Source of the DNA: Roseobacter sp.
Lineage (GTDB): Bacteria > Pseudomonadota > Alphaproteobacteria > Rhodobacterales > Rhodobacteraceae
Assembly (NCBI GenBank): GCA_015665415.1
Contig: JADFAE010000005.1
Span: forward strand, 248,001 to 312,000
Length of the DNA stretch: 64,000 bases
Direction of reading: 5' to 3'
A program made the translations under genes and the position numbers. Positions within the stretch are counted from its first letter, which is position 1, and the number at the start of each line of letters is the position of its first letter. The notes beneath the pieces were generated by a model that saw only the letters and a program-made list of their open reading frames with translations, made no database searches and had not been told where the DNA came from. Below are positions 2,088 through 37,897 of this stretch, one piece after another.

Positions 2088-3443
2088 ATGCTTCTCAACC
2101 GAAAAACCTATGGGCTGCTGCTTCGGGCAGGCCTCATTGCGCTTCCGATGCTGTGGTTCGGGGCAAATGCGTCTCAGGCCGACGACAGTTGCGCCATTCC
2201 TGAGGATTGGTTCCCCGACAATGTTCCGGATCCGCAGGAAACTGCGGCCACGATGGATTTTGACAGTTTCTGCGCCTTTCATCAGTGGTCCTGGAATGCC
2301 TTTCTCTGGTCGATGGAAGAGCAGGATGGTGCCCTCAGATTCGAGAGCTTTCCCACCCAGGAGCAAACGATAGATGCGTCCTTCTCTGCAAAGGACAGCT
2401 CTCAGGTGTTGCGGTTGCAGCTGCGCGCCGGCAAGGGGGATCATCCGATCGATTCCGTCGCCCAGGCCGGAACGCTGGGGCTGTTGGTGGCGCAAAACAG
2501 CCGCGGGGTCTACTACAGCCAGCATGTCTCGCCGCAAATGTATCAACAGATTGTCTCGCTCGACTGGAACTCGGCCGAGGGGCTGACCAATGCACCGGAT
2601 GATGCCCTGTTTGATGTGGGCAACATCGAATACAAGGCGGCCTGGGCCATTGTCGGCGACGGGTTTTCGGTGCCGGGGGCCTATACCCGCATGGCGGAGA
2701 TCCCGCAGCTGGCCACCGTTGTGATCGATGGTGTTCCAACCATCACGGTGCCGGCAGATCCCACCTATGTCGAGGCAGAGGTTGCCTTGATTGGTCTGCA
2801 TGTTGTCGGTTGGGTCAATGGCCACTCTGAGGCCATTTGGGCCAGCTTCTCTCCCATCGACATCGCGCCGGTGGTTCCAACGGATGCCACGGGCAATGCG
2901 ACCATTTCGCCAAGCGACCCAGTGTCCGGTACGGCCACGCCGTTTTACGCCGCAGACACGCCTTTGTCAGAGTGCAATCAGACCAATCTGCCGATCCAAA
3001 AGCTGAATGACGCCACCCAGGAATTTGCCGTTCTGACCCAGGCTTGCCAGTTCTATGAGGCGGGTACTGTAGGCGGGTTTGGTACAGCAAACGGTGCGGC
3101 CATTGAGCAGATCAATGCCTCCGCCGTTAGCGAGATTCCGGACGGTGACGTCTCTCGCGGATATTTTGAAGTGGGGGCGGTCTGGTCCAATGCCGACAAG
3201 CCGGGCGTGAGCAAGCTGAACACCACCTTCCAGGATGCGCTTGTGGGCTCCAATGTGTTGTCCAATCCGGTGATCGAGACATTTACCCAGACCGAAGTGG
3301 GGCAGCACAACTGCTTTTCCTGTCACAATTCCCTGCAGTTTCAACCGAGTGATCCCAGCATTACACCATTGCATCCCTCAATGCTCAATCTCAGCCATTT
3401 CCTGATGCAGATCTATGTCACCACCTATGGCGCGACGAACTGA
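2088..3443 (+). CDS. Exported protein with single c-type heme motif, LodA-cassette partner
   Basis: This is a 451-residue protein with a Sec signal peptide (basic N-terminus, hydrophobic stretch, cleavage expected after residues around NASQA). Near the C-terminus it has one heme c attachment motif, CFSCH, at residues 409-413, so the mature protein should be a periplasmic monoheme protein. The rest matches no family I can name. ATG 2088 is preferred over GTG 2070 because AAGGA precedes it and the signal peptide then starts correctly. It lies 65 bases upstream of a LodA-family gene on the same strand and is probably cotranscribed. An electron-acceptor role for the quinoprotein is inference. Confidence 0.8.
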   Translation: MLLNRKTYGLLLRAGLIALPMLWFGANASQADDSCAIPEDWFPDNVPDPQETAATMDFDSFCAFHQWSWNAFLWSMEEQDGALRFESFPTQEQTIDASFSAKDSSQVLRLQLRAGKGDHPIDSVAQAGTLGLLVAQNSRGVYYSQHVSPQMYQQIVSLDWNSAEGLTNAPDDALFDVGNIEYKAAWAIVGDGFSVPGAYTRMAEIPQLATVVIDGVPTITVPADPTYVEAEVALIGLHVVGWVNGHSEAIWASFSPIDIAPVVPTDATGNATISPSDPVSGTATPFYAADTPLSECNQTNLPIQKLNDATQEFAVLTQACQFYEAGTVGGFGTANGAAIEQINASAVSEIPDGDVSRGYFEVGAVWSNADKPGVSKLNTTFQDALVGSNVLSNPVIETFTQTEVGQHNCFSCHNSLQFQPSDPSITPLHPSMLNLSHFLMQIYVTTYGATN

Positions 3444-3508
3444 CGGCTCCGGGTTTTATCGCCACGTTTCAGGCGTGGCGTCGTTCAACAGTTTAGGAGA
3501 TCATTCTC

Positions 3509-5791
3509 ATGAGTACGACTTTGCGCATTCACCCTGCAATTGGCATTTCCCGGGTCGGAAATTCGCCGGACTACATCATCGCGCCCGAAACCTCTGCCGG
3601 GATGCCGCCCATTGCCGGGTCCACGGTGTCCGGTGGTTTGCCGATCAAGCCGGGCACCGAGACGCAGACGATTACCGATCAGGATTTGCGCGACAGCGAC
3701 GGGCGGCTCAAGCCCCACGCCCAGCGGTTTCGCATCTTTGCCTATGCCGAGGCACCCAGCAGCTACCCCTATGAGGGCGCGGTGACGGAGGTCTGCATTG
3801 GCAGTACCGTCGATGGCAAAACCGTCGAGGCGATCACCTGGCAGGTCCATATGGCCAACAAAAAGGCCAACAACTGGATCATCCCGGAGAATCCTTCTGA
3901 CAACACGGATTGGAACAATGGGGTCGGCGGCATGGCCCATTATGCCAATGGCCAGACCCCCAATGTGCGCAACGGTGTTTTTGGCAAATCGACCTATCCG
4001 GTTGACCTCAATTCCGCAGACTGGGGCGATGGCACGGATCCTTCCGAAGTGGATATGTCGGATCCGGTGCGGCTGACCAAGCTGGTCATTGATGCAGGCC
4101 CCAAAACGATCAGCACCGGTCAGGCGGGGCGGGTGGAATTCGACAGTGGGGCCTGCAGCTATATCGCTGCCGATGGCAGTATCGCGACGGTGGACTATCC
4201 CCAGCTGTGGCCCGCAGATAATTTCAGCCAGCTGTTCACGCCGAACAATTCCAGCCTTGGCACCATGGGCGGCATGGAGACGGATGATCAGGGGCGCCTG
4301 CTGGTGATCGGCTCTCCCGGCTATGCGGCGGCCTGGCAGGTTGGCGAAAACAACCCCGGTGGCAGTGTCGATCAACCGCCCGCCTGGCAGCCGGGCACCG
4401 AAGGAGAGCCTTTTGCACCGCCTGCGTTGAACCAGCCGTTTCCGCTGTGGAGCGATATTGACAATGACGGCTGGCTTGATGATGCCGGCGACGGCCCGGT
4501 CACGGCGGTGCTGCAGTTCTCGGATGGCAGCAGCCGGGTGATCGATGTGCCCGCCTGGTGCATCTGTGCCGATCCGGCCTATGCGCCGCAGGTGCGCAAT
4601 GTGGTTTCGATTTGGGACGAGGTCTACAATACCTGGCTGCGCGCGCCAGAGCTGCAGCTGGACAGCAACATCTACGACACCACCACGCAGCAGTATAATA
4701 CCAAGTATCAGGCCTCCTTTGAACAGGATGTCTGGACCATGTTCCGGGCGGCGCATCTGCAGATGTTCACCACCGATCTGAATGCCACCGCCATTGGGGC
4801 GCATCAGCGGGTCAACGATATCTCTGCCAGTGATGATCCGGCGACCTATCTGAATGTGAAGAACTTCATCCGCAATCCCAACACCGGGGCCGGCAATGAT
4901 CTTGAAGTGGGGTCGCCGCTAATGCCGCTGTCGCTGGGGGATACGGGGTCCAGTTTCCTCACCGTGACCCATACGCAGTATTTCTTTCTAGATCAGTGGT
5001 CTGCTGGGGAGTACAACGATGACAAGGAGCAGCTGACCGCGGGTGAGCTGCTGGACAAGAATGTCCTGACCAATCTGTTGGGCGGGCGGTTCAGCCCGGG
5101 GATCGATCTGACCTTCATTGTGCGCGACCCCTATCTCTACAATCGCGACTGGAGTGCGCCTGCGGTTGGGACCTTTCGGATCGGTGGCAAGGCGCTGGAT
5201 TATGCCAGTGCAACAACCGCGCCCTTCCTGGGGGTTGGCTATACTCCGAACAGGACCGTTGAAAACCCGGTTGAACCAGGGGATCTGTGCAAGTTCATGG
5301 CGCTGCCCTGGCACACGGATTACAATTCCTGCGCAACCCATCTGCCGTCACCCAATCCGCAGCCGGGTGCCAACGCGGCGATCAATGCCCCCAATACCAC
5401 CCTGTTCTGGTCCTGGCCGGCCCAGCGGCCGGTCTCGGTCTATACCTATGAGGATTACGCCGCGAACGGGAATGCTTTCTTTGCAGAGCAGCGGTTCTCG
5501 GTGCGCGGCACTGGCACCCAATGGCTGCCGGACAATCCGGATCCGGAATATAGTGTCGGAGCCGAAAGTGTCGGGCGCTTTCAGGATCGGTTGAATATCG
5601 TAACCCGTTGGTTTGATATCGGTATTGTGCTACAGGGCCCAGCCATCGAAGGCTTCACCGGTAGCAATTCAGATATGTTCCTGGAGGTGAAAAGCCTGCT
5701 GGAAGGACCCTCTGACTGGTCGCAACCCTGGCCGATTCAGACCACGGACAAGGTGTTCCCAGAGCCGTCAGAGCCAGGTGAAAATGGCTGA
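3509..5791 (+). CDS. LodA/GoxA-family CTQ-dependent amino-acid oxidase-like protein
   Basis: This 760-residue protein has the hallmarks of the LodA/GoxA family: an N-terminus RIHPAIGISRVGNS, the block RFRIFAYAEA, and a C-terminal region with ALPWHTDYNSC followed by FWSWPAQRP. Family members oxidise a primary amine (lysine epsilon-amine in LodA, glycine in GoxA), releasing H2O2, through a cysteine tryptophylquinone. Candidate cross-link residues are Cys608 and Trp634 or Trp636; their spacing is shorter than the 65 residues I recall for LodA. There is no signal peptide. A TAGGAGA site precedes the ATG. The stop overlaps the LodB-like gene by 8 bases. Substrate cannot be told. Confidence 0.85.
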   Translation: MSTTLRIHPAIGISRVGNSPDYIIAPETSAGMPPIAGSTVSGGLPIKPGTETQTITDQDLRDSDGRLKPHAQRFRIFAYAEAPSSYPYEGAVTEVCIGSTVDGKTVEAITWQVHMANKKANNWIIPENPSDNTDWNNGVGGMAHYANGQTPNVRNGVFGKSTYPVDLNSADWGDGTDPSEVDMSDPVRLTKLVIDAGPKTISTGQAGRVEFDSGACSYIAADGSIATVDYPQLWPADNFSQLFTPNNSSLGTMGGMETDDQGRLLVIGSPGYAAAWQVGENNPGGSVDQPPAWQPGTEGEPFAPPALNQPFPLWSDIDNDGWLDDAGDGPVTAVLQFSDGSSRVIDVPAWCICADPAYAPQVRNVVSIWDEVYNTWLRAPELQLDSNIYDTTTQQYNTKYQASFEQDVWTMFRAAHLQMFTTDLNATAIGAHQRVNDISASDDPATYLNVKNFIRNPNTGAGNDLEVGSPLMPLSLGDTGSSFLTVTHTQYFFLDQWSAGEYNDDKEQLTAGELLDKNVLTNLLGGRFSPGIDLTFIVRDPYLYNRDWSAPAVGTFRIGGKALDYASATTAPFLGVGYTPNRTVENPVEPGDLCKFMALPWHTDYNSCATHLPSPNPQPGANAAINAPNTTLFWSWPAQRPVSVYTYEDYAANGNAFFAEQRFSVRGTGTQWLPDNPDPEYSVGAESVGRFQDRLNIVTRWFDIGIVLQGPAIEGFTGSNSDMFLEVKSLLEGPSDWSQPWPIQTTDKVFPEPSEPGENG

Positions 5792-6890
5792 ACACAGCTA
5801 TGATGTGGTGATCATAGGCGGTGGCGCTGCGGGCAGCGCTGCCGCCTTGACGCTGCGCCAGCTTGGCGTGCAGTCCGTGTGCATCGTCGAAGGCTCGGAT
5901 TTTGCCGAGGCTAGGGTGGGGGAAACTATTCCTCCGGATACCAATCTGCTGCTGCGCGAGCTGGGCGTTGACCGGAGTTTTGCCAGTCAAAAGCACCTGC
6001 CTTGTTACGGCAGTCAGTCCCTGTGGGGCGGTCCCCAGCTGGGGCACAATGATTTTTTGACCTCGCCTTATGGTCATGGCTGGCATCTGGACCGGGCGGA
6101 ATTTGACAGGATGCTCCTGGCACAGGCGGTGGCGGCCGGGGTTACGCGTATGAATGCCCGTTGCGATTCTGTTGCCTGTACCAAAGACCGGGTGAGCGGA
6201 ATCCTGGCGGGGGGGCAGAGGATCAAGGCGGGAACATATATTGATGCGACTGGGCGCAGCGCGATTGTGCTGCGCGCGCTTGGGGTTGGTCATCGGTTCG
6301 ACGATCGGCAAACTGTCATTTGGGCGCGTTTTGATCTGCCGGGACCGGTGCTGGGGCACAGTACCTGGCTCGAGTCTGCGCCCAATGGCTGGTGGTATGC
6401 CGCCGAGGTGCCGGGAGGGGCGGCGGTTGTTGCGCTGGGAACGGATCCGCGACTGGCCAAATCGGCTGGGCTATACAATCTTCCCCCCTGGGCCGTTGCC
6501 TTGTCGGGCACCCGCCTGATTGCTCCACGCCTGGCGCAGGCGCGCTTGGCCCCCGACAGTTTCAGGATCACTGCCTCGCATTCCTATCGGGCTGAACGCT
6601 GTGCCGGGGCAAACTGGATTGCCGTCGGGGATGCCGCGACGGGGCTCGATCCTCTGTCCTCTGCGGGTATCTACAAAGCGCTGAGCACCGGACAACAGGC
6701 GGCGCGAGCTGTGGTGCAAGAGGGGGGCATGGCAGCCTATACGCAGCGGGTCGGGCAGGACTATGATGGCTATCTGATCAAACGGGCGGAATTGTATCAA
6801 TCTGAGCAGCGCTGGCCGCAAAACGGCTTTTGGGCAGCCCGACAGTCTGTGCCTGAGCAATCAACTTCTGTCTTTGCCAGGTCGTTTTGA
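5784..6890 (+). CDS. LodB-like FAD-dependent maturation enzyme
   Basis: This 368-residue flavoprotein starts with a Rossmann FAD fold (VVIIGGGAAGSAAALTLRQL) and has GETIPPDTNLLLRELG and the second FAD motif GDAATGLDPLSSAG near residue 285. In characterised systems LodB/GoxB hydroxylates the tryptophan of LodA/GoxA to start quinone formation. The ATG at 5784 overlaps the LodA-like stop by 8 bases, which fits coupled synthesis of enzyme and maturase. A general halogenase or hydroxylase reading is excluded mainly by this context. After its stop, about 200 bases without a recognised gene separate it from the response regulator. Confidence 0.85.
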   Translation: MAEHSYDVVIIGGGAAGSAAALTLRQLGVQSVCIVEGSDFAEARVGETIPPDTNLLLRELGVDRSFASQKHLPCYGSQSLWGGPQLGHNDFLTSPYGHGWHLDRAEFDRMLLAQAVAAGVTRMNARCDSVACTKDRVSGILAGGQRIKAGTYIDATGRSAIVLRALGVGHRFDDRQTVIWARFDLPGPVLGHSTWLESAPNGWWYAAEVPGGAAVVALGTDPRLAKSAGLYNLPPWAVALSGTRLIAPRLAQARLAPDSFRITASHSYRAERCAGANWIAVGDAATGLDPLSSAGIYKALSTGQQAARAVVQEGGMAAYTQRVGQDYDGYLIKRAELYQSEQRWPQNGFWAARQSVPEQSTSVFARSF

Positions 6891-7093: not shown

Positions 7094-7516
7094 ATGACTG
7101 ATAAAAAACTCTATATTGCCGAAGATAATCTTGAGTTCTCCGACTATCTTGCCACCGTTGCCAAGCGGGAGGGGTGGCTGGTTGAGACCTGTGTCAATGG
7201 GGATGAACTGCTCGCTCTGCTCTACGAAGGTTCTGACCCGGCTCTTGCCCTGATTGATATCAACATGCCTGAGAAGGATGGGATCCAGGTAGTTGAGGCC
7301 CTGTCTGATCTCACCCGCCCCCTGCGCTTCAGATTCATGACAGGGGGCGCGGATGCGCCGATTTTGGCAGCCATGTTGATGGCGCGTGCCCGCAGCCTGT
7401 CGGTTGGTCGCAATCTATATAAACCCATCCCCATGGAGACCTTGATCGCGGTGTTGAATGACGAAGGGGAGGCCTTGGTGCAGTTGGAGGATTATCCGCA
7501 GTTGTCTGCCCTCTAA
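7094..7516 (+). CDS. Single-domain response regulator
   Basis: This 140-residue CheY-like receiver has no output domain. The acidic pocket (E10, D11), phospho-acceptor Asp55 in ALIDINMPEKDG, Thr83 and Lys110 are all present, so it should be phosphorylatable. It is convergent with, and 11 bases from, a hybrid histidine kinase, which may be its phosphodonor. It follows the LodA cassette on the same strand after 203 bases, so it could also belong to that transcript. The output is unknown because it has no DNA-binding part. Confidence 0.85.
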   Translation: MTDKKLYIAEDNLEFSDYLATVAKREGWLVETCVNGDELLALLYEGSDPALALIDINMPEKDGIQVVEALSDLTRPLRFRFMTGGADAPILAAMLMARARSLSVGRNLYKPIPMETLIAVLNDEGEALVQLEDYPQLSAL

Positions 7517-7527
7517 TTTCTGTGGTG

Positions 7528-9582
7528 TCAGCGTTTGTCTTGAAAGGACTTCTTGATTGCGGCCTGCAGATCACCTCGGCGCACCGGCTTCATCAGCCGG
7601 ATGTCTTCACGGCGCAACCCATTGCCATGGACGGTGGCTTCGCTGGCATATCCCGACATGAAAATCACCGGAAGTTCGGGCACCATGCGACGTAATTCCG
7701 ACGACAATGTGGTGCCCTGAAGCCCACCTGGCATGACAATATCGGTGATCAGCAGGTCAAAATGAGGGTCGGCCTCGAATATCGCCTTGGCGGCATCCCC
7801 AGACCGGGCAGCGGTGACCGCGTAGCCATCCCGTTCCAGGGTTTTGACGAGGACGGAGAGCACATCCTCATCATCTTCTGCCAAAAGAAGACGCAGGCCG
7901 GTGTTGCATGTGTCGCTGGGCCCCGCGGCGGCGGGGGAGGGGGGAGCGGCGGAGGTGTGGGCGTTGAAGAAGAGCTTGAAGGTGGTGCCGACGCCAGGCT
8001 CTGAGTAGACCTGCACGGTGCCACCAGATTGGCGCATGAACCCGTGCACCATCGATAGACCGAGGCCGGAGTTACTGCCGACATCTTTGGTGGAAAAGAA
8101 GGGTTCGAAAATTTCGCTCAGATGGTCCGGCGGGATGCCGGCACCGGTGTCACTGATGGCGAGCATGGCATAGCGACCGGGCTTGAGCTCTTCCTGGCGG
8201 GTATCCATGTAGCTGCTTTCGATGCGGATATTTGCAGTCTCGATTGTCAGTCTGCCGCCGTCGGGCATGGCGTCGCAGGCATTGAGGATCAGGTTCAAAA
8301 GTGCACTTTCGGTGGAACCTGGGTCGACCTCAACGGGCCAGAGCTCCGCCAGCAGGGAGGTTTCCACCGAAATGGTTGCCGGCAGGGTCCGACTGACCAG
8401 TTTGCGGGTGTCCAGGACCACCTTGTTGATATCGACAAGGCTGGGCTTCAGGCTGGCCTTGCGGGCAAAGGCCAGCAAATTGCGGGTCAGATCCGCGCCA
8501 CGCAGAGTTGCAGCAATGCTGGTGTCGATCAGTTTTAGCTGCTGTTTGTCGTCGATTTCATCGCGCAATAGTTCCAGATTGCCCAGTGTAACCGCCAGTA
8601 GATTGTTAAAGTCATGGGCTATGCCACCGGTCAGCTTGCCCACGGCCTCCAGCTTTTGCGAGCGGGCCAGTTGCTGTTGAACCCTTTCGTGTTCTTTGAT
8701 TTCGGCCTTGCGGGCGGAGATATCCATAACTGAGGCCCGGATGAGTTTGCGGTCATGTGGTGGCAGGCGCACCAGCGAGACCTCGCAGTCCAGCCGTTTG
8801 CCGCTCTTGTGTTGGTGTTGCCATTCGAACACCGGGAATCCCCCCGCAAGCGCTTGCGCCAGATAGGTTGAGATCGCAGCGCTTGAGCGGGTGCCATTCG
8901 CCTGCATTGCCGGGGTGAGCTCCCTTGGTCCGATCGCACCTACCAGCTCATCCCGGCGATAACCAAAGATCTCTTCGGCGCGGGGGTTGACGTTGGTGAA
9001 GATCCCGAGATTGGTGTCTTCGCCTTGCTTGCGTAGATTTTCCGTCAAGGTGATACAGGCGATGCCGCTGAGCAGCAGGGCCGAGGTCATCACCATCCAA
9101 TTTTTCCAGTTACTTGAAAAGGATAGGAAACCAGGGATGTTTGCTTCTAGAGTCTTTGTGGCATAGAGGGCGCCAAAGGTGAGGCTGATCAAAATTGCCA
9201 GAGCGAGGGTCAAATAGGCGCCCCGCGGCCCGATGAGGGCTGCAGACAGGATCGGGGTGGTCAGCAATACCATCCAGGCTGCTGAGGGAAGACCAAGATA
9301 GGTCAGACCGGTGATGGCCAGCAGGAACAGGCCCAGCAGCAGTAGCGCGGTCCGTTTGATCGGATGCTTGGCCAGGGGCCACAGCAATGGCGGTGCCACA
9401 AAGAAAATCAGGAAAATTGGAATGCCAACGTAGTAGAGCGGCCCAAACAGGGGGGCTCTGGTTGCGGCGGCACAGATGCCCAATCCAACGGCGATGGTGA
9501 AATAGAGGAACAGCCAGTTCGAAGAGGCCCGCAGCTTTGTTGCATGGGTTTCTTTGACATGAAGGATCTGGTCCTCCTGCAT
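7528..9582 (-). CDS. Membrane-bound hybrid histidine kinase with PAS domain
   Basis: This is a 684-residue kinase. About five or six hydrophobic helices fill residues 20-185. A PAS domain follows (NPRAEEIFGYRRDELVG), then HisKA with phospho-His near 323 in GGIAHDFNNLL, an HATPase domain with NLILNACDAM and GLGLSMV, and a C-terminal receiver with ITDIVMPGG. I chose ATG 9582 because GAGGGGG precedes it; the longer frame from 9684 has no such site. The membrane part looks like a transporter-type or MASE-like sensor rather than a periplasmic loop sensor. The signal is unknown. It lies tail to tail with the response regulator at 7094-7516. Confidence 0.9.
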   Translation of the reverse strand: MQEDQILHVKETHATKLRASSNWLFLYFTIAVGLGICAAATRAPLFGPLYYVGIPIFLIFFVAPPLLWPLAKHPIKRTALLLLGLFLLAITGLTYLGLPSAAWMVLLTTPILSAALIGPRGAYLTLALAILISLTFGALYATKTLEANIPGFLSFSSNWKNWMVMTSALLLSGIACITLTENLRKQGEDTNLGIFTNVNPRAEEIFGYRRDELVGAIGPRELTPAMQANGTRSSAAISTYLAQALAGGFPVFEWQHQHKSGKRLDCEVSLVRLPPHDRKLIRASVMDISARKAEIKEHERVQQQLARSQKLEAVGKLTGGIAHDFNNLLAVTLGNLELLRDEIDDKQQLKLIDTSIAATLRGADLTRNLLAFARKASLKPSLVDINKVVLDTRKLVSRTLPATISVETSLLAELWPVEVDPGSTESALLNLILNACDAMPDGGRLTIETANIRIESSYMDTRQEELKPGRYAMLAISDTGAGIPPDHLSEIFEPFFSTKDVGSNSGLGLSMVHGFMRQSGGTVQVYSEPGVGTTFKLFFNAHTSAAPPSPAAAGPSDTCNTGLRLLLAEDDEDVLSVLVKTLERDGYAVTAARSGDAAKAIFEADPHFDLLITDIVMPGGLQGTTLSSELRRMVPELPVIFMSGYASEATVHGNGLRREDIRLMKPVRRGDLQAAIKKSFQDKR

Positions 9583-9751
9583 TGCTGTCCCCCTCAAATA
9601 ACTGCAGTTTGAAAGCGTTGTGACCAACTTGGAGGAAGTCGGATGGCTTACTTTCAACTGTAGGCTGAATGAGGGAGTAATCAAGGGTCGTTAAGCTGCG
9701 GTGGCCTGCAGGATCCCGCTATTGTCCGGGAAAGGAGCAATCGTGATGTGC

Positions 9752-35889: not shown

Positions 35890-37452
35890 TCAAAGGCTCT
35901 CCAGAAAACGAATGAGGGCGGCCCGGTCTGTGGGGGCAAGGTCGACCACGCGGTCACGGGCGGTTTGCGCCTCGCCGCCATGCCAGAGCACTGCCTCCAG
36001 CAGGGAACGGGCGCGGCCATCATGCAGATAGGTGGCGCGCGGGTTTACCTGTTTTGTCAGGCCAACGCCCCACAGCGGCGCGGTGCGCCATTCGCGCCCG
36101 GTGGCGCGGCCTTCGGGGCGGTTGTCTGCCAAGCCGTCCCCCATGTCATGCAGTAACAGATCACTATAGGGCCAGATCAGCTGAAAGCTGTTTTCGGGTC
36201 GATCCGCCAGACGCTGGGTGACAAATTTGGGGGTGTGACAACTGGTGCAGCCGCTGGTGTAAAACAGCGCCTTGCCGCGCAGCACCTGCGGGTCAGCGAT
36301 ATCGCGCCGCGCCGGAACCGCAAGATTGCGGGTGTAAAAGGTCACCAGATCCATATTGGCCTGGTCAATTTCGGTGCCGCGCACATCGCCATCTCCATGG
36401 GGCGCTGTACGGCAGGCCGTCTGCAGAGTGGTGCAATCACCAGAGGCGGCGGGAAACAGCGGGGTCGAGATACCCACATCCCCAGAGAAGGCCGCCGCCG
36501 ATTGCTGATGCAGGGTTGGCATGCCAGCCTTGTGACCAAAGCGGCCCAGCATGATACGGTCGAACTCCAGCGACCAGGCAAGGTTGGCGCGGCCGGAAAT
36601 GCCATCGCCATTGCGGTCATCCTCGTCGACATGGGCAAGGATGTCATCGACTGAAATCGCCTCCAGCAGCCCAAGACCGATCATCGGCGGCGCCAGTCGT
36701 GGCGACACCATGGCCTGCGGGTGCAGGGGCCCATAGCCCAGTTCCGCAGCCTCATAGCTTGGGACGCGCAGCTCTGCCGTCTCACCCCCGGCGAGGTCTA
36801 CGATCTGAGGTGTGTAGTGGACACGCAACCGGTATTCGGAGGGCATGCCAGGGGCAGAGAAATCTTGCAGCTGGCCGCCATATGTTGGGTCGGGGGCAGT
36901 GGCGAGGTAGTCTTTGACCGCCTGCATTGCCGCTGGCATTTCAGCGGGGATCGATATGCGCAAAAACATCGAAGCGGAACGATAGTCGGGATCCTGGGGC
37001 ACCTCGCCGCGCCCATCCTTGACATGGCAGCGCTGGCAGGAGCGGGCGTTATACAGCGGACCCAACCCGTCAGAGGCGCGGGTGGAGGCTGGCGAAAACA
37101 CCCAGATCTTTTTGAACAAACCATTGCCGAGCTTGAACTCCAGCTCTTGTTCAAAGGACAGGTTGGCGGAATGCTGGGAAAAGGCCTCATCATCGTCGCG
37201 GGCGCGCACTGTCGCACTGCCGCCGGGGGTCTGTTCAAAGGTCTCGGGGGTGGTGAAATCCTGCGTCGGCGCGGTTGCTGCGGCGATACGACCGCGCTCT
37301 GCGGCGCTGCGGGGCAGGATCGAAAGATGGGGATCACCCAGCCCAAGGCCGGAGAGGTCGAGTGCATAGGCGGGGGAGGCTGCCGCAAGTGCGGCAGCCA
37401 GGAGGAGGTTACTCTTCAGCCGCTTCCATTTTGGTGGCGTTGAGTTGGGCAT
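35890..37452 (-). CDS. Di-heme c-type oxidoreductase (DUF1111)
   Basis: This protein of about 520 residues has a signal peptide ([15 protein letters not shown]) and two heme c motifs, CQRCH at residues 139-143 and CTSCH near residue 405. Other DUF1111 blocks are [15 protein letters not shown] and the C-terminal [15 protein letters not shown]. The family is described as thiol or di-heme oxidoreductases of the periplasm. The start is uncertain: ATG 37452 lies inside the end of bfr (44-base overlap) without a clear Shine-Dalgarno. It precedes the imelysin gene with no gap. Confidence 0.8.
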
Positions 37453-37897
37453 AATTTTCGGCACCAATCCGGTCGTGCAGTTCAAGTTGGGTTTCGAGGA
37501 AGTCGATATGGCCTTCCTCGTCTGCCATCAACGTCTCAAACAGTTTCATCGTGACGTAGTCACCGGCGTCGTTGCAAACATCGCGGGCTTCTTTGTATAG
37601 CGCGCGGGCGCTCTCTTCGGCGGCCAGATCGCATTCCAGTGTTTCCTTCGGCGTTTGCCCGATGCGCAGCGGATCCAGTTTTTGCAGATTGGGGTGACCG
37701 CCAAGGAACAGGATCCGGGCAATCAGGTCATCCGCGTGCTGCATCTCTTCGATGCTTTCTTCGCGGCTTTTCTTGGCCATGCTGCCCAGGCCCCAATCGT
37801 CCTGCAAACGATAGTGGAGCCAATACTGGCTCACGGCGGTCAGTTCATGACGCAGTGCCTTGTTGAGATAGTCGATGACTTTGGGGTCGCCCTTCAT
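37409..37897 (-). CDS. bfr: Bacterioferritin
   Basis: This 162-residue ferritin has the full ferroxidase set E18, E51, H54, E94, E127 and H130, and the heme ligand M52. It stores iron as a 24-mer with heme between subunits. AGGAGA lies seven bases before ATG 37897. Its 5' end overlaps bfd by 53 bases and its 3' end overlaps the DUF1111 frame by 44, so storage, release and periplasmic redox genes are packed into one transcript. Confidence 0.95.

Follow-up and report, generated by a model that had tools for sequence, protein, structure and literature searches.

A 64,000-nucleotide stretch of a Roseobacter sp. genome (contig JADFAE010000005.1, positions 248,001 to 312,000; hereafter the window) carries three consecutive plus-strand genes, which encode an apparently exported protein with a single heme c motif (P0001, hereafter the heme protein), a LodA/GoxA-like enzyme of the cysteine tryptophylquinone (CTQ) type (P0002), and a LodB-like flavoprotein maturase (P0003). 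This cassette is real and conserved. Our preferred explanation, to which we give about an even chance, is that it joins a CTQ oxidase of the LodA/GoxA type to an exported, enlarged heme protein of the cytochrome P460/c'-beta fold that acts on the oxidase's products. An earlier note on this DNA had described the same three genes in the same order, with open reading frames (ORFs) at or within a few codons of ours (Table 1), and that description holds.

The LodA-like enzyme was recognized by both Pfam domains of its family, LodA_N (E = 6.5e-38) and LodA_C (E = 1.3e-34), at 131.3 and 119.5 bits over curated cut-offs of 26.3 and 25. Its scores were far under the NCBIfam equivalog cut-offs (161.1 of 600 bits for LodA, 139.4 of 750 bits for GoxA), so that its substrate cannot be assigned to lysine or glycine; P0003 was also under the 400-bit equivalog cut-off of its best NCBIfam model, LodB (224.5 bits). 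Trp636 is the only tryptophan after Cys608 that is conserved in all 39 LodA-like rows, a count from which the partial sequence L008 was left out. Oxidase activity, with O2 turned into H2O2, is assumed for P0002 from its family. The gap between the heme protein and LodA-like ORFs is 65 bases, and the LodB-like start overlaps the LodA-like stop by 8 bases. We set the heme protein start at the ATG at 2088 (the mechanical ORF runs from a GTG at 2070); purine-rich stretches were read by eye 5' of 2088 and 3509, and a promoter and terminator scan gave signals near shuffle level. Ratios of nonsynonymous to synonymous change (dN/dS, NG86) between the window and Kordiimonas were not used: synonymous sites were saturated for two genes, and values came out for lodB only (dN 0.33, dS 3.3).

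As noted before, the LodA-like protein has no signal peptide, and its N-terminus (MSTTLRIHPAIG) agrees with this. In Marinomonas mediterranea, LodA is secreted and LodB stays inside the cell (PMC2855505), which makes a meeting of the LodA-like enzyme with an exported heme protein less puzzling, even though the conserved domain of the 726-residue LodA chain starts close to its first residue. By analogy, the LodA-like enzyme and the heme protein may encounter each other outside the cytoplasm.

Neither Pfam nor NCBIfam matched the heme protein itself at E<=1. We also considered a MauG-like or classical cytochrome c domain, and found no match in P0001 (1 of 23 family members touches Cytochrome_CBB3, at E 0.11). 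Its CxxCH is not a chance occurrence, because the motif is present at the same C-terminal place in all 51 family ORFs, the frame-broken copy L004 having been dropped beforehand; the earlier note had allowed that the motif might not be conserved in homologs, and it is. Tyr359, Asn393, and Glu397 are also invariant in these ORFs, together with three of the residues listed in Table 1 (Lys183, Trp186, His238). The genome encodes CcmH, which makes c-type heme attachment to P0001 plausible.

The cytochrome P460/c'-beta fold is suggested by two structure predictions. The first is an AlphaFold2 model of the window's heme protein built with 23 sequences (predicted local distance difference test 79.5, predicted template modelling score 0.84); the second is of a remote family member not linked to LodA, L125 (77.2 and 0.80). 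When 998 Foldseek candidates for the first model were realigned, the first 17 rows of the VIA list were all cytochromes P460/c'-beta (Z 5.0-6.0, 127-143 residues aligned), ahead of a PNPOx-type protein at Z 3.3. For the second model, the first 16 VIA rows were again all cytochromes P460/c'-beta (Z 5.8-6.9), with alignments that span 126-136 residues of chains of 135-160, and the next unrelated row was at 3.2. These rows represent six distinct proteins with their mutants. McP460 was the first Foldseek row for the second model (E 0.10), and the MS2 coat protein at the top of the first model's Foldseek list was set aside as a chance match. A search for a solved relative by sequence found none; its one row, a kinase at E 1.4, was also taken as chance.

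Sequence comparisons pointed the same way. No other Pfam family hit as many members as Cytochrome_P460 did (5/23, best E 0.017), with the window protein itself unmatched; since the family stays below significance for this model (PF16694), we call it P460-like and not a PF16694 member. A hidden Markov model (HMM) was built from eight P460 proteins (L164 and L166 were left out of this alignment, A5). For the Xanthomonas member it scored 16.5 bits, with the lysine strand and the CxxCH matched as two collinear stretches, and its best domain exceeded 5 bits in 10 of 51 family members vs. 1 of 1020 shuffles. Two hhalign runs (26.5% and 6.8%) weakly aligned Lys183 to the lysine of the P460 cross-link, and the CxxCH...DFxF ends of the two families were also paired weakly (21.6%); a LodA control gave 0.5%. 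Taken together, P460-like ancestry of the heme family seems to us very probable. We note that the genome also encodes an ordinary small cytochrome P460 (G000:C10:49099-49536, L160; PF16694, E 1.2e-26).

Table 1 Features of the cassette, in window coordinates.
Feature	Position	Strand	Basis
Heme protein (P0001), apparently exported 451-aa monoheme c-type protein with P460/c'-beta-like predicted fold	2088..3443	+	ORF, motif, family alignment, predicted structure
Putative Sec signal peptide, residues 1-31, ...NASQA/DD	2088..2180	+	Read from sequence with a cleavage rule
Lys183, aligned to the cytochrome P460 heme cross-link lysine (NsP460 Lys106)	2634..2636	+	Invariant in 51/51 and in 3/3 later members; pairing from hhalign and HMM alignments, both weak; NsP460 numbering counted along the chain and checked against PMC11928373 Table 2
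Trp186, invariant	2643..2645	+	51/51 and 3/3 later members
His238, invariant, on a strand paired by spacing with the P460 distal strand (putative pairing and role)	2799..2801	+	54/54
CFSCH heme c motif, residues 409-413, sole CxxCH of P0001	3312..3326	+	CxxCH in 51/51 family ORFs
His437	3396..3398	+	In 9 LodA-linked and 3 later members; 30/51 of the family
LodA/GoxA-like CTQ enzyme (P0002), 760 aa	3509..5791	+	Pfam LodA_N and LodA_C; NCBIfam NF038172/NF038173 below cut-off
Cys608, equivalent of LodA Cys516 (CTQ)	5330..5332	+	39/39 LodA-like rows; counted on LodA chain alignment
Trp636, candidate CTQ tryptophan (LodA Trp581)	5414..5416	+	39/39 rows; assigned from its invariance rather than from an alignment with LodA residues
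LodB-like flavoprotein maturase (P0003), 368 aa	5784..6890	+	NCBIfam LodB 2.1e-66, GoxB 4.2e-60, QhpG 3.2e-50

The cassette recurs well outside the window's genome. Searching genome contigs with the heme protein returned nine relatives; a LodA-like gene follows in six (Kordiimonas, Pseudophaeobacter leonis, Tropicimonas, Saccharospirillum, Chromobacterium subtsugae, and an alphaproteobacterial metagenome-assembled genome, MAG) and not in three. Members of the Alpha-, Beta- and Gammaproteobacteria carry the triad. Absence of LodA-like neighbours elsewhere, which the earlier note had named as a way for its proposal to fail, was thus not what we found. Among seven plasmid records read, the triad was present in Pseudoalteromonas xiamenensis and Xanthomonas sacchari and absent from two Rhizobium, one Vibrio, and one Bradyrhizobium record and from Pseudoalteromonas sp. 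NC201 (an unannotated stretch, scanned). Within the window's order, the heme family was detected in 24 of 390 genomes and a LodA_C match in 20, with both in five (G000, G147, G259, G336, G346); by coordinates, the two genes are adjacent only in the window's genome and ~11 kb apart in G346. In a phylum-wide sample the counts were 15 and 12 of 398, and three genomes had both, adjacent again only in the window's genome. Genome counts of this remote family are lower bounds, and neighbourhoods were read in 17/24 order-level genomes, 14/15 phylum-sample genomes, and 7/12 plasmids. LodA of the window's clade was found in 2/12 genomes of the genus (the window's and Pseudophaeobacter leonis), and the cassette therefore looks accessory. 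In the P. leonis copy of the cassette (L004/L223) each of the three genes has its reading frame broken, and the MAG carries two tandem heme-family genes before one lodA-like gene (L008:2910-6076).

The heme family is wide, and its link with LodA is a special case. Only 9 of its 51 genes, two of them the tandem pair, are LodA-linked; in the tree of all 51, these nine form one side of a branch with a Shimodaira-Hasegawa-like approximate likelihood ratio (SH-aLRT) support of 85, a separation matched by 0/500 shuffles. We therefore rejected the proposal that the heme protein is a partner dedicated to LodA-like enzymes, as the earlier note had it, given that 42 of the 51 family genes lack a LodA-like neighbour. 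Other neighbours vary. VioB-like proteins adjoin the heme gene in G048 and G515 (TIGR04492, best E 2.4e-15); in G048, a genome for which no LodA_C match was reported, the heme-family gene has a VioB-like gene on either side and a ferritin-like frame in its vicinity (L073:2642-9230). On a Rhizobium plasmid the heme gene is followed by a YCF48-like protein. Of ten further neighbours scanned, seven were ordinary unrelated proteins (RF3, WD40, Mg-chelatase-like, DEAD helicase, ABC1, ABC transporter, ETF-QO), and the other three fell into no family. We also considered whether a small gene and a large gene form a conserved pair downstream of the heme genes, and this proved only partly real: among the large genes scanned, those of L079, L082, L123, and L125 are GMC oxidoreductases, that of L131 is a TrwB-like ATPase, and those of L118 and L120 are without assignment. 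Downstream of the cassette itself, we read by eye a response-regulator-like ORF (window 7094-7516, +) and a hybrid histidine-kinase-like ORF (window 7528-9684, -).

Because the first LodA-linked loci had come from heme-protein searches, we also searched from the LodA side, using a LodA alignment and 61, 95, 80, and 12 genomes of relatives of known carriers, plus the earlier LodA_C search. G957 and G1003, the same contigs as L008 and L004, were not counted, and duplicates or fragments (L001, L004, L012, L052, L064, L089) were dropped from the LodA tree. The LodA clade that holds the window protein has 14 rows (support 100/100), and the slot upstream of LodA is taken by a heme protein in 11 and by a ferritin-like protein in 3. 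Its six non-seed members have immediately upstream either a heme gene (G792, G882, G979) or a ferritin-like gene (G833, G876, G337); none had both or neither. The ferritin-like call was made by Pfam PF12902 for G337 and by similarity to the G337 protein for G833 and G876 (3.2e-98, 6.2e-98). Outside the clade, no heme-family frame was seen beside LodA-like genes at loci L167-L214, within ~1.5 kb of flank in which partial matches can hide neighbours. More distant LodA-like genes have ferritin-like (L145 and L146 by Pfam, L222 by similarity), tyrosinase (L148, L149), or multicopper-oxidase (L147) neighbours, and placing the heme, ferritin, and tyrosinase labels on the LodA tree takes three changes (minimum two). 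The window's genome holds a second lodA-like/lodB-like pair of a different clade (G000:C14, L089:7415-10368), beside which no heme-family, ferritin-like, tyrosinase, or multicopper-oxidase gene was recognized.

The reported partners of LodA-like proteins mostly have O2- or peroxide-active metal centres, and we infer that what they have in common is chemistry with O2 or peroxide, and not electron transport. They include catalase-fold, pfam14518, fungal ferritin-like, tyrosinase, and multicopper-oxidase proteins, fused or adjacent (PMC4417212). An upstream slot that is filled by either a heme or a ferritin-like protein favours a partner that handles the product (H2O2, imine) over a respiratory electron acceptor. 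In our preferred explanation, the LodB-like flavoprotein would help to build the CTQ quinone of the LodA-like oxidase, and the heme protein would occupy the gene position that in close LodA relatives belongs to a ferritin-like protein. Its heme would be five-coordinate or weakly six-coordinate and, outside the cytoplasm, would react directly with H2O2, with the oxidase's nitrogen or imine product, or with both. A Lys183-heme link may also arise from the H2O2 that the oxidase makes; in NeP460 the lysine-heme link is formed by peroxide (PMC11928373).

Several points weigh against this explanation. All VIA Z-scores for both models were below 8, no Foldseek E-value was significant with either model (0.10-0.11 for McP460), and the alignments behind the two models share rows, which makes the second a partial replicate and not a fully independent one. 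The P460 HMM control was not clean (2/8 unrelated CxxCH ORFs also exceeded 5 bits), and the shuffles destroy the CxxCH too. The partner slot reflects few independent events, with G833 and G876 near relatives and G792 near the C. subtsugae seed. With regard to chemistry, peroxidase-like activity is found in NeCP-beta, which lacks the lysine, and arises in NeP460 when Lys70 is replaced (PMC11928373); the lysine or its cross-link suppresses peroxidase activity in NeP460, and a cross-linked Lys183 would make a simple peroxidase less likely. P460s that carry a distal carboxylate oxidise hydroxylamine (PMC11928373). The position assigned to this carboxylate, placed by spacing from the His238 strand and not by structure, is Leu in 52 and Met in 2 of 54 rows, which would argue against hydroxylamine oxidation. 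His238 or His437 could be a sixth heme ligand. GMC oxidoreductases lie within two genes of the heme gene at four loci (L079, L082, L123, L125), as would suit an electron acceptor, and a small gene at L079 weakly matches the FAD-SLDH small subunit (21.5 bits, cut-off 24.2).

These GMC neighbourhoods keep alive one of the interpretations in the earlier note, that the heme protein accepts electrons from a CTQ dehydrogenase and passes them to the respiratory chain. The gene order is tight, the branching of the LodA-linked heme genes resembles that of their LodA-like partners (no formal test), the two histidines, one invariant and one shared by the LodA-linked members, could ligate iron, and quinohemoprotein amine dehydrogenase is itself a CTQ enzyme with c-type hemes (PMC7876137). 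Even so, both predicted structures suggest a fold whose known hemes are mono-His, ligand-binding or catalytic, and low-potential, with wild types at -205 to -424 mV (PMC11928373), a poor starting point for a respiratory acceptor; a ferritin-like gene in the same slot of sister LodA genes is hard to fit with a respiratory carrier, and the other LodA-like gene of the genome lacks such a partner. We therefore regard the acceptor role as unlikely.

It is also conceivable, and in our estimation quite unlikely, that the heme protein handles NO, CO, or hydroxylamine and merely shares the operon, for example in sensing or detoxification of nitrogen species. Characterised P460/c'-beta members do, or are proposed to do, such handling (PMC11928373), and the family is broad with varied neighbours; one conserved gene order with LodA across classes and the lack of a carboxylate at the assigned distal position speak against it. 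More improbable still is a role in building the CTQ cofactor, as diheme MauG does for tryptophan tryptophylquinone (TTQ). The last oxidation to the quinone needs an oxidant, and peroxide chemistry suits heme; moreover, the sister lodA of G337 (L144:1811-4720) is preceded by the PF12902 ferritin-like gene and by a DHOR-family diheme gene with weak MauG likeness (E 0.004). However, LodB and GoxB are known CTQ maturases for which the accessible text of PMC7876137 names no heme protein, LodB is inside the cell (PMC2855505) whereas P0001 looks exported, and most heme-family genes have no adjoining LodA-like gene. The diheme and ferritin-like genes of G337 may be what naturally stands in for the heme partner there. 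The window also contains, far from the cassette (35890-37485, -), a 531-aa frame that resembles this diheme protein (E 2.5e-9).

An extension of the product-handling explanation, bolder and in our judgement doubtful, is that the heme protein is a giant P460 whose Lys183-heme cross-link is made by H2O2 from the neighbouring CTQ oxidase, that the pair carries out a two-step oxidation, and that the wider family comprises unrecognised exported P460-fold partners of oxidases (LodA, GMC, VioB-like). If true, a single cassette would encode a pair of protein-derived redox cofactors of which the first enables the second, and the P460-like heme would use both the H2O2 and the imine made by the oxidase. 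The structurally characterised P460/c'-beta proteins are six small cytochromes, mainly from work on nitrification and gas binding (PMC11928373 Table 2), and a broad family of ~380-680-residue relatives that share an invariant lysine at the cross-link position and in some cases accompany quinone, flavin, or VioB-like enzymes would widen the chemistry of this fold. It would offer a natural test of the peroxide-made lysine-heme bond and bear on why LodA-like genes often accompany O2- or peroxide-active metal proteins. In the searched literature, whose coverage excludes most subscription papers, we found no publication joining cytochrome P460 and LodA; P460 was mentioned with quinoproteins only in work on methane or ammonia oxidation and with amino acid oxidases only in unrelated work, and LodA did not occur with cytochrome c in papers on CTQ or quinohemoprotein amine dehydrogenase. 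The main text of the LodA-family survey (PMC4417212) does not describe an upstream heme protein ('cytochrome' has 0 occurrences there).

When compared with known systems, the cassette is closest in its enzyme to LodA/LodB (L-lysine epsilon-oxidase of Marinomonas mediterranea) and GoxA/GoxB (glycine oxidase), with which it shares LodA_N/LodA_C, the CTQ cysteine, the conserved tryptophan, and a LodB-like gene directly downstream; it differs in adding an exported heme protein upstream. The VioA/VioB pair combines an amino-acid oxidase with a metal-dependent partner. Pairs of this type resemble our system in that relatives of the heme gene adjoin VioB-like proteins and ferritin-like genes replace the heme gene beside LodA, although no VioB-like gene is among the three genes of the cassette. 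Quinohemoprotein amine dehydrogenase (QhpABC) likewise combines a CTQ enzyme with c-type heme, and its flavoprotein maturase, QhpG, is related to LodB (PMC7876137), but here the quinoprotein is LodA-type and the diheme subunit has no counterpart: P0001 has one CxxCH, and P0002 and P0003 have none. No further qhp-like gene was recognized by eye among the window ORFs, the flanks not being profile-scanned. Finally, cytochromes P460/c'-beta share with the heme protein a single C-terminal CxxCH and, in remote family members, a DFxF-like end, and probably also the fold, as predicted, and the cross-link lysine, as weakly aligned, whereas P0001 is about three times longer (451 aa vs. 135-161 residues of solved chains) and its family has an invariant His238 and no carboxylate at the assigned distal position.

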